From Deltaproteobacteria bacterium (GTDB lineage Bacteria > Desulfobacterota > Desulfobacteria > Desulfobacterales > UBA5852): 64,000 nucleotides of DNA. This document shows positions 22,825 through 25,282 of the stretch, piece after piece. The notes beneath the pieces are model-generated. The model was not told the origin of the DNA. It was given only the letters and a program-made list of their open reading frames with translations, and did no database searches. A program made the translations under genes and the position numbers. Position 1 is the first letter of the stretch, and the number at the start of each line of letters is the position of its first letter. The stretch spans positions 1 to 64,000 of the forward strand of contig JAHLLS010000007.1 of the NCBI GenBank assembly GCA_020444045.1, given 5' to 3'.

Positions 22825-24180
22825 ATGGGCGAATTTTTCGGCACGGACGGCATACGCGGTCGGGCGAACCAATACCCGCTGACACCTGAAATGGCGGTGC
22901 GCATTGGTCGCGCCATTGGCATTATTTTCGGGGATGCCAACGGCGGACCTCCCATTATCATCGGGCGGGACACGCGGCGTTCGGGTAAAATGCTGGAAGC
23001 CGCTGTAGCGGCCGGTATTTGCTCGGCCGGTACAAATGTATTGCTGAGCAGGATTATTCCAACCCCCGGTGTTGCTTTTTTAACACGACATCAAGGTGCC
23101 GCGGCCGGAGTGGTCATCTCGGCCTCCCACAACCCGTATGAAGATAACGGCATCAAACTATTCAACCAAGAAGGCGTAAAACTTTCTGATCGGGAAGAAA
23201 CCCAGATTGAAACCCTAATTCGGGAGGATCCATCTGAAGGTTTGAAGGATGCGTTGGGTTATCAGGTGGGGTCCATTCAAACCATGAAGGGTTCCCGCAA
23301 GCAGTATCTGTCCTTTCTGCTTCGATCCATCCCTGCAGATTTCAATCTGAATGGTATGAAAATTGTGCTGGATTGCTCGAACGGTGCTGCTTCAGCCATT
23401 GCTCCCAACCTTTTTGATACACTGGGGGCTGATTTGACGGTGTTGAGCAACCAGCCGAATGGAACCAATATCAATCACGAGTGCGGTTCTGAACACCCCG
23501 TAACACTGTGCCGCAAAGTGCTTGAAATCGGTGCGGATCTGGGGTTGGCATTCGATGGTGATGTCGATCGCATGATTGCCGTCGATGAATCCGGCACTGT
23601 CATTACCGGCGACCAACTCCTGGCTATTGGAGCCCGGTTTCTCTACGGCCGCGGACAGTTGTGGAATAACGTGCTGGTTTCAACCGTGATGAGCAATATA
23701 GGGCTCAAAGAATGCCTTCAATCCATCGGCATCCGACACTTTGCCAGCGATGTGGGCGATCGCCATGTCATTGAAAAAATGACGGACTGCGAAGCCGCTC
23801 TCGGTGGTGAAGATTCAGGGCATATTATCTACCGCGCCTACCACACGACGGGTGACGGGCTGTTGAGTGCTCTTAAGCTGGTCGAAGCGATGAAAGAGGA
23901 AGACCGATCGTTGTCGGCCATGGCGAGGTTCATGACGGTCTACCCGCAAACATTGATCAATGTGCCTGTCAACGAAAAGCCGGCAATCGCGACACTTGTC
24001 CCTGTCACGGATACCATTCGGGAGGAGGAGCAAAAGCTTGGGGATCGGGGGAGGGTGCTGGTGCGCTATTCCGGTACGCAGCAGATCTGTCGTGTGATGG
24101 TGGAAGGCCCCACCAAAGAGGCCGCAGAAAAGAGTGCCCAGAATATTGCCATTGCCATTGCTGACGCCATCGGCCAATAG
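22825..24180 (+). CDS. glmM: Phosphoglucosamine mutase
   Basis: 451-aa alpha-D-phosphohexomutase converting glucosamine-6-phosphate to glucosamine-1-phosphate for UDP-GlcNAc, used in peptidoglycan, LPS and the glycans of this cluster. FGTDGIRG at residues 5-12 is the GlmM N-terminal motif. The phosphoserine loop is ISASHNPYEDNGIK with Ser101; the metal loop is FDGDVDRM; the phosphate-binding loop is RYSGTQQ. A strong GGGGGG lies before ATG 22825. The stop codon TAG is the first three bases of a 145-bp imperfect palindrome (24178-24322). Confidence 0.93.
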   Translation: MGEFFGTDGIRGRANQYPLTPEMAVRIGRAIGIIFGDANGGPPIIIGRDTRRSGKMLEAAVAAGICSAGTNVLLSRIIPTPGVAFLTRHQGAAAGVVISASHNPYEDNGIKLFNQEGVKLSDREETQIETLIREDPSEGLKDALGYQVGSIQTMKGSRKQYLSFLLRSIPADFNLNGMKIVLDCSNGAASAIAPNLFDTLGADLTVLSNQPNGTNINHECGSEHPVTLCRKVLEIGADLGLAFDGDVDRMIAVDESGTVITGDQLLAIGARFLYGRGQLWNNVLVSTVMSNIGLKECLQSIGIRHFASDVGDRHVIEKMTDCEAALGGEDSGHIIYRAYHTTGDGLLSALKLVEAMKEEDRSLSAMARFMTVYPQTLINVPVNEKPAIATLVPVTDTIREEEQKLGDRGRVLVRYSGTQQICRVMVEGPTKEAAEKSAQNIAIAIADAIGQ

Positions 24181-24322
24181 AAGCATCTCAAAATTGTCTT
24201 TTCACCCGATATCTGCGTTAAAGCCTCGCCCCAAGTCCTCGACATACTGGAGTATGCCTGCGGGTTGGCTCTCGACTTTGCCTTGATCTCGGGCGAAAAT
24301 CCTAATTTTGGGATTGCTTCTA
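24178..24322. repeat. 145-bp imperfect palindrome (ERIC/MITE-like)
   Basis: The ends TAGAAGCA (24178-24185) and TGCTTCTA (24315-24322) are inverted copies. Going inward, CAAAATT, TTTTC, CCCGA, ATC, AAAG and CCAA also match in inverted order, and the centre is CATACT-GG-AGTATG (24243-24256). Size and shape resemble ERIC-type intergenic repeats. The terminal TA suggests insertion at a TA site, as for Tc1/mariner/IS630-related MITEs. It touches the glmM stop codon. No second copy was seen in this window. Confidence 0.75.
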
Positions 24323-24363
24323 CAAACGCCAAGCTGGAGAACTTAAAGCTGAAACGATAAAAA

Positions 24364-24399
24364 CCCCCTGCCCTCGATCTAAGTGATCGGGGCAGGGGG
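24364..24399 (-). terminator. Rho-independent terminator for the BAX-inhibitor-like gene
   Basis: Arms CCCCCTGCCC-T-CGATC (24364-24379) and GATCGGGGCAGGGGG (24385-24399) pair with one bulged base. On the minus strand the stem is followed by TTTTTATC, a proper T-run, so it ends the gene at 24422-25150. In the plus direction there is no T-run, but the stem may still protect the end of the glmM transcript. Confidence 0.8.
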
Positions 24400-24421
24400 C
24401 TTGAAATTTCAGACGCGGCCG

Positions 24422-25150
24422 CTAGTCGCGGCGCCCGCCGAATATGTACAGCAGCATCAGAAACAGGTTGATGAAATCCAGATAGAGCGTCAAGGCACCG
24501 ACAATCGACCCTTTGCGGATGACCCCTGCATCCAGGCCGGCCGGCTGCGAAAGGGCCATGGCCTTCAGCTTCTGGGTATCGTAAGCTGTCAGGCCCACGA
24601 AAACGAGCACCCCGACGTAACTCACGATCATGGCCATGGCGGGGCTGCGCAGGAACATATTGACGACGGAAGCGATGATGATGCCGATCAATCCCATCAT
24701 CATAAACCCGCCCAGCGAGGTCAAATCCCGTTTGGTGGTCCATCCATAGAGACTGCAGGCCAGAAATGTCCCGGCACAGATAAAAAAGGTCGAGACAATG
24801 GATGACTGGGTAAAGATGATAAAGATGGAACTAAGCGTCGCTCCGTTAAGGGCGGCATAGGCGATGAACAAGGCCGTGGCGGTCGATGCCTGCATGCGCT
24901 GTACACGGGCGCTGATGGAAAAGACCAGGGCCAGTTCGGCGATGATCGCCCCATAAAACAGCATGGTGGGTTTCATTTGATTGCCGACGACTTGAAACAT
25001 CAATTGAAACAGATTGGCATTGTGGGCAAACAGGTAAGCTACAACGCCGGTAACGGCCAAGCCGGCGGCCATCCAGTTGTAGACACTACGCACAAACGTA
25101 TTAACATGCGTGATGGCTTCCTGATTTTGCATGGGTACGGAACGTTGCAT
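24422..25150 (-). CDS. BAX inhibitor-1/YccA-family membrane protein
   Basis: 242-aa protein with seven hydrophobic segments, from VRSVYNWMAAGLAVTGVVAYLF to LTLYLDFINLFLMLLYIFGGRR. The C-terminal pattern LTAYDTQKLK plus LYLDFINLFLMLLYI is the Bax1-I signature; the Asp pair (in AYDTQ and LYLDF) forms the pH-sensing site in structurally studied members. It is a probable calcium- or proton-leak type inner membrane protein, also reported to associate with FtsH in E. coli. ATG at 25150 with GGAGG five to six bases upstream. It reads convergently with glmM. Confidence 0.9.
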   Translation of the reverse strand: MQRSVPMQNQEAITHVNTFVRSVYNWMAAGLAVTGVVAYLFAHNANLFQLMFQVVGNQMKPTMLFYGAIIAELALVFSISARVQRMQASTATALFIAYAALNGATLSSIFIIFTQSSIVSTFFICAGTFLACSLYGWTTKRDLTSLGGFMMMGLIGIIIASVVNMFLRSPAMAMIVSYVGVLVFVGLTAYDTQKLKAMALSQPAGLDAGVIRKGSIVGALTLYLDFINLFLMLLYIFGGRRD

Positions 25151-25282
25151 TGAATCCTCCTTGCAATAAGTCAAAATTTAAGTTGTCAGAATATAACACA
25201 TCCGTTTAGGATTTCAATTCATGAAAGCGTCTTGGTGAGGATCTAAAATCAAAAGGACATCTTGAGAAAGATTCGTACGCCT

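Follow-up and report, generated by a model that had tools for sequence, protein, structure and literature searches.

A widespread family of ERIC-like palindromes in Desulfobacterota, with a copy that begins in the glmM stop codon

ERIC sequences have been used for strain typing for decades, and to our knowledge no enzyme that moves them is known. MIRU elements of mycobacteria, which are not palindromic and have a different size, insert in the sense orientation at stop/start junctions. The palindromic YPAL elements of Yersinia were reportedly found by De Gregorio in 2006 just downstream of stop codons, with effects on 3′ UTRs. In the part of PMC2229807 that deals with it, ERIC is a dispersed 127-bp sequence that forms one long imperfect palindrome and has TA at each end; the corresponding part of PMC2759123 gives a consensus that ends in TA and has the boxes GCGTT...GCCTT, and mentions two genes whose 3′ ends are fused to ERIC copies, one of them having lost its normal stop. 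BOX copies of Streptococcus pneumoniae encode the extreme 3′ end and the stop of 36 genes, with no strong evidence of truncation in the relevant section of PMC3049150. As far as that section of PMC2229807 goes, YPAL (RU-2) has no TA termini, has internal inverted repeats, and makes target duplications of 3–26 bp, while the pneumococcal RUP (about 107 bp) and the Correia/NEMIS elements of Neisseria have TA termini and are MITE-like.

The element described here lies in a 64,000-nucleotide window (positions 1 to 64,000 of contig JAHLLS010000007.1, assembly GCA_020444045.1) from a deltaproteobacterium of the Desulfobacterales. Its parts and neighbours are as follows.

24178–24322, plus strand: whole element, an imperfect palindrome of 145 bp of the GAAGC subfamily (sequence, BLAST copies, covariance-model scores of 150.7 bits with R1 and 122.3 bits with R2).
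24178–24180, plus strand: TAG, at once the glmM stop codon and the leftmost bases of the element (sequence, open reading frame).
24178–24195, plus strand: left outer arm, TAGAAGCATCTCAAAATT (sequence, folding, repeat search).
24304–24322, plus strand: right outer arm, AATTTTGGGATTGCTTCTA, with the terminal TA (sequence, folding, repeat search).
24214–24219, plus strand: left core box TGCGTT, GGCGTT in the family consensus (copy comparison).
24280–24285, plus strand: right core box GCCTTG (copy comparison).
24243–24256, plus strand: central perfect inverted repeat CATACT-GG-AGTATG, the apical helix of the consensus structure (sequence, covariation).
22825–24180, plus strand: glmM, phosphoglucosamine mutase by its Pfam domains, whose stop is the first three bases of the element (open reading frame, four PGM/PMM Pfam domains).
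24361–24402, either strand: short G+C-rich hairpin between the convergent genes, outside the element, probably a two-way terminator (repeat search, relative G004).
24422–25174, minus strand: Bax1-I family membrane protein, convergent and downstream (Pfam domains).

The sequence reads as the original prediction had it: a palindrome with inverted ends (TAGAAGCA on the left, TGCTTCTA on the right), a perfect centre (CATACTGGAGTATG), and the glmM stop codon inside the element. The orientation is that of the family consensus. A repeat search of the window picked up no more than an 11-nt arm pair, owing to the imperfect arms. Folded as RNA, the element reaches −56.2 kcal/mol against −38.15 ± 4.38 for shuffled sequences (z = −4.12), and none of 200 shuffles folds as well. 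The curated covariance models of Rfam placed no family on it up to an E value of 1. The G+C-rich hairpin downstream also occurs in G004, where the element is absent, and is probably the two-way terminator of glmM and the Bax1-family gene; a simple terminator scan of the window did not report it, and a RybB match on it (24359–24402) stays below threshold at 23.4 bits with a cut-off of 40. Integron attC sites carry boxes of the form RYYYAAC...GTTRRRY and lie among gene cassettes served by an integrase. Judged by eye, the polarity of the boxes in the element looks wrong for an attC site, and the glmM–Bax1 neighbourhood recurs in relatives.

The palindrome is not a product of chance, since its own genome (G000) contains further copies. 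BLAST at E below 1e-7 gives seven distinct copies there, the remaining rows being short, weak or opposite-strand matches, and at E ≤ 1e-3 it finds copies in 12 of 40 relatives. The covariance model R1, built on 26 copies, extends this to 32 of the 40 at E ≤ 0.01, and has 75 matches in G000, of which 6 are the opposite strand of a listed copy. In a phylum-wide sample, 36 of 198 genomes have covariance-model matches at E ≤ 1e-4. A search of 80 loci found one copy on a Syntrophus contig, and the plasmid and phage collections gave no match to the window element. Copy number differs by more than an order of magnitude among related genomes: the end motif is counted 9 times in one genome, 75 times in G002, 171 in G013, and 250 in G038, and its reversed control 0 times in all four. 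Two identical copies with identical near flanks lie on two contigs of G000 (L080, C29:22699–22844; L081, C48:860–1005), which may reflect a strain mixture or a duplicated assembly end, given a contamination of 6.2%. A literature search, which covered sources outside subscription journals, found no Desulfobacterota family of such palindromes. The element at 24178–24322 is one copy of a widespread new family of an already known kind, probably the small non-autonomous mobile palindromes, and the dispersal foreseen for an ERIC-like element is borne out in its own genome and in its relatives.

The arms in G000 and G002 group into subfamilies. Two of these are TA-GAAGCYATCTC, to which the window element belongs, and TA-GTGYCCATCC; a T-GACGG type of about 127 bp and a TAAAACGCTC type of about 100 bp also occur. 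Common to the subfamilies is a core of GGCGTT followed by GCCTTG, which flank the apical helix at a box-to-box distance of 70–73 bases in most copies (about 60 between the boxes). The pattern GGCGTTN{52,82}GCCTTG alone is not specific because it occurs 119 times in G000 against 66 for its reversed control. Among 36 copies of the first two subfamilies and near relatives, 30 of 37 pairs are changed on both sides, with 281 double-changed cells against 95 in shuffles. Paired cells amount to 90.9%; shuffles give 69.1%, and sliding the partner by 1–3 columns gives no more than 44.1%. In our reading, the box regions pair asymmetrically, which gives the palindrome a direction. The spans between end motifs are discrete (142, 124, 151, 170, 209, and 218), and element interiors are conserved and of fixed length. 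These quantised lengths and the conserved core point to recognition of the folded unit as a whole. A 222-bp composite, with its set of embedded small hairpins, recurs at three G002 loci (L381:4311–4532, L380:12362–12583, and L387:18850–19071) and was therefore copied as a whole unit. The two smaller hairpins within it (GGGAAGTCCCGC.. and TACCCCA..GGG..) are themselves probably another repeat.

Of 74 copies in three relatives, 49 are bounded by TA on both sides, and beyond it these 74 copies have only a weak GANTA preference and no longer target duplication. Insertion at TA, as proposed, is probable; the IS630/mariner origin that had been attached to it is not supported, as the DDE_3 transposase is absent from G002, G013, and G038. 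Element-free relatives of the kind suggested for finding the target do exist at three orthologous sites, namely glmM in G004 and two gene ends in G002. All three have TGA and downstream spacers that do not align, which leaves no base-exact target, and the putative TA duplication is deduced from the element ends. At stop codons of G000 the left TA is kept in 12 of 15 copies and the right TA in 5 of 15; this decay on the right is as expected if the left end serves as a stop codon.

The placement relative to stop codons is exact and largely one-sided. At 27 places in G000, the stop of the upstream same-strand gene coincides with element bases 1–3 in 13 and falls within 3 nt in 15, and none of the 27 has an antisense stop at the right end. 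The left end lies exactly on a stop in 6 of 21 places in G002, 2 of 23 in G038, and 9 of 30 in G013, and the right end in 0 of 21, 2 of 23, and 2 of 30, respectively. The one-sided rule is less strict in the two more distant genomes, G013 (9:2) and G038 (2:2), and in G038 stop codons are hardly favoured at all. In 1.57 Mb of long stretches searched with R1, the left end is within 3 nt of a stop in 21 of 52 copies and the right end in none, after removal of 16 of 68 rows that were opposite-strand, truncated or partial duplicates. With R2, a model built on 36 copies of several subfamilies, the left end is on a same-strand stop in 25 of 53 copies and the right end in none over 1.50 Mb of two species, the window included, 14 of 67 rows having been dropped on the same grounds. 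Both counts are to be read with their sampling in mind: the two sets overlap, several of the 53 copies had gone into R2, the choice of stretches was guided in part by contigs in which copies had already been found, and orthologous copies of the two species are not independent.

If each non-coding TA were equally likely to be hit, 5.4% of the TA-type copies in G000 and 4.0% of those in G002 would be expected at a stop; the observed figures are 7 of 11 and 8 of 22. The same picture emerges from a family-blind scan of 12-mers with an inverted partner 60–260 nt away. For offsets +1 to +6 relative to the stop, the counts are 5–7 of 701 and 7–9 of 609 genes, as opposed to 0 of 701 and 2 or fewer of 609 for offsets −9 to −3, so that such repeats, like the family, set in sharply at stop codons. 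When all copies in three relatives are considered, their flanking genes are not preferentially oriented: the left neighbour is on the same strand in 10, 12, and 16 cases, and the right neighbour is antisense in 9, 11, and 15. Insertion at the TA of a TAA or TAG stop would keep the stop because the element supplies TAG. Plain TA targeting, however, keeps the stop in both orientations, and the absence of right ends at stops (0 of 53) is not accounted for by it. Survivorship, that is, retention of old copies at stops, is neither supported nor countered by nearest-sibling identity: copies at stops are no different from the rest in this respect in any of four genomes (p = 0.86, 1.0, 0.98, and 0.19).

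The suggestion that insertion may have altered the last residues of GlmM is not borne out. The protein ends in ..AIADAIGQ here and in ..AIADAIGT or ..AIGA in relatives that have another repeat or none, and its end position is the same in G002 and G004. In ten further genes that carry a copy at their stop, the orthologous protein of G002 terminates at the same residue in nine cases and differs by one residue in the tenth. Inspected by eye, the same ten ends in G002 have no element in two cases, the same element by descent in two, a different palindrome on the stop in five, and an ambiguous remnant in one. Of 131 orthologous genes, 6 bear an element at the stop in G000; at 4 of these 6 stops G002 also has a palindrome (2 under strict criteria, 2 by eye), compared with 1 of the remaining 125. 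This exceeds what independent insertion allows and points to hot spots, to old positions whose arms were replaced, or to a function. With the structure predicted from the G000 copy, four orthologous copies have 17 pairs that are double-changed and still paired (3, 3, 5, and 6 per copy), 4 that are single-changed and paired, and 23 that are broken. Since co-occupied stops often carry a different subfamily and pairs have changed, positions are conserved or preferred while arms turn over.

Related palindromes also occur side by side. After glmM in an uncultured Desulfobacteraceae contig (L159, CAJXSL010000010.1) there are two copies; in G002 (L240/L159) the palindromes in tandem after glmM are related but different, the first beginning one base past the stop. 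In G000, a second, different palindromic repeat (L341:301–389, C14:178501–178589) lies directly 3′ of the copy at C14:178326, and G002 carries its own palindrome at the stop where that copy sits.

Taken together, the window element is probably an old copy of a phylum-wide, ERIC-like family of small, selfish, non-autonomous mobile palindromes. An enzyme acting in trans would recognise the folded palindrome with its core and insert it at TA. Copies at stops would be tolerated and retained, and transcription of the gene would carry them along as a hairpin in its 3′ UTR, which at glmM would sit between the stop codon and the terminator-like hairpin. The converse order of causes, in which the host maintains a 3′ UTR structure whose RNA hairpin protects or processes the mRNA at certain gene ends and spread is secondary, seems unlikely even though several observations agree with it: the exact position and single orientation at stops, the co-occupancy of orthologous stops with different arms, the strong covariation, and the double changes within orthologous copies. 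The covariation between subfamilies can also stem from palindromic birth or arm-templated repair. Mismatches in the outer stem of 79 copies, moreover, have no G-U excess (29 GU, 41 AC), a pattern that fits DNA and would not be expected of a sense RNA under selection. Neither the lack of orientation preference among flanking genes nor the wide variation in copy number among related genomes fits a structure kept by the host. In a bolder and quite improbable reading, undiscovered machinery would aim insertion at translation stops in the sense direction, perhaps by way of the mRNA or of the ribosome during termination. ERIC and the Desulfobacterota family would then be branches of one superfamily that this machinery serves and that is recognised by the asymmetric GCGTT/GCCTT core.

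The probable reading as a mobile palindrome leaves the type of enzyme to be considered, and neither familiar class fits well. Derivation from an IS630/mariner element as a MITE, to which the TA ends and inverted termini would point, is very unlikely: the DDE_3 transposase is missing from the three genomes named above in spite of their many copies, and its one partial match, in G000, has no family end within 3 mismatches at its locus save chance-like degenerate ones. Pairing of end motifs up to 4 kb apart over about 1.6 Mb identified no transposase-sized or autonomous element, the long pairs enclosing other genes, only some of which were read, or none. The conserved, fixed-length interiors are also unlike those of ordinary internal-deletion MITEs. 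Movement as a single-stranded hairpin by a Y1 (HUH) transposase, as for REP/RAYT elements, would explain an asymmetric hairpin with conserved bulges and directional junctions at stops, and yet is scarcely probable. G013 is rich in copies and has no Y1_Tnp, and none of 12 Y1_Tnp loci of the other genomes contains an R1 copy; an end motif occurs in one of these loci and another end motif in two overlapping ones. The TA ends differ, too, from the GTAG/CGTC tags given for REPs in the part of PMC3733652 that describes them.

Among the known systems, ERIC is closest. Both are single long imperfect palindromes with TA at both termini, dispersed and intergenic, and the GCGTT...GCCTT pair recurs in ERIC at similar spacing. 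They differ in length (145–147 against 127 bp) and in their arms, and the family starts with TAG, which keeps the stop, where ERIC reads TAT. Model comparisons are mixed. R2, built only from the family, matches 3 of 14 ERIC loci, all with strand and register in agreement (E = 3.6e-5, 0.017, and 0.12), with no other match in 40 kb and with three further loci left out as near-duplicates. R1 matched 0 of 8 ERIC loci, the ERIC model R3 found no family copy in 1.5 Mb (best E 4.4), and pairwise alignment of the element with ERIC was no better than with shuffles. Given these results, the element appears to work like ERIC and is not filed as ERIC. In 11 distinct ERIC loci, the left end falls 1–6 nt after a same-strand stop in 5, and the opposite end lies within 3 nt of an antisense stop in 2.

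The remaining systems share single traits with the family. BOX likewise has the stop codon of genes inside a repeat copy; being modular (boxA-boxB-boxC) and from Firmicutes, it is likened by placement and not by sequence. YPAL (RU-2) is a palindromic insertion as well and lacks the TA termini that usually bound the family. RUP and Correia/NEMIS share the TA termini and the MITE-like form, and RUP has a proposed IS630 parent, whereas a DDE_3 search of G000, G002, G013, and G038 found none for the family. A second, phylum-wide family of ERIC design with a shared core and exchanged arms provides a comparative handle on the mobilising enzyme, and its stop-exact, single-orientation placement would reveal either a new way of choosing targets or strong selection for the exact base at which the mRNA hairpin begins. 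Placement at stops is known in kind from such systems; its exactness and one-sidedness are the unusual part.
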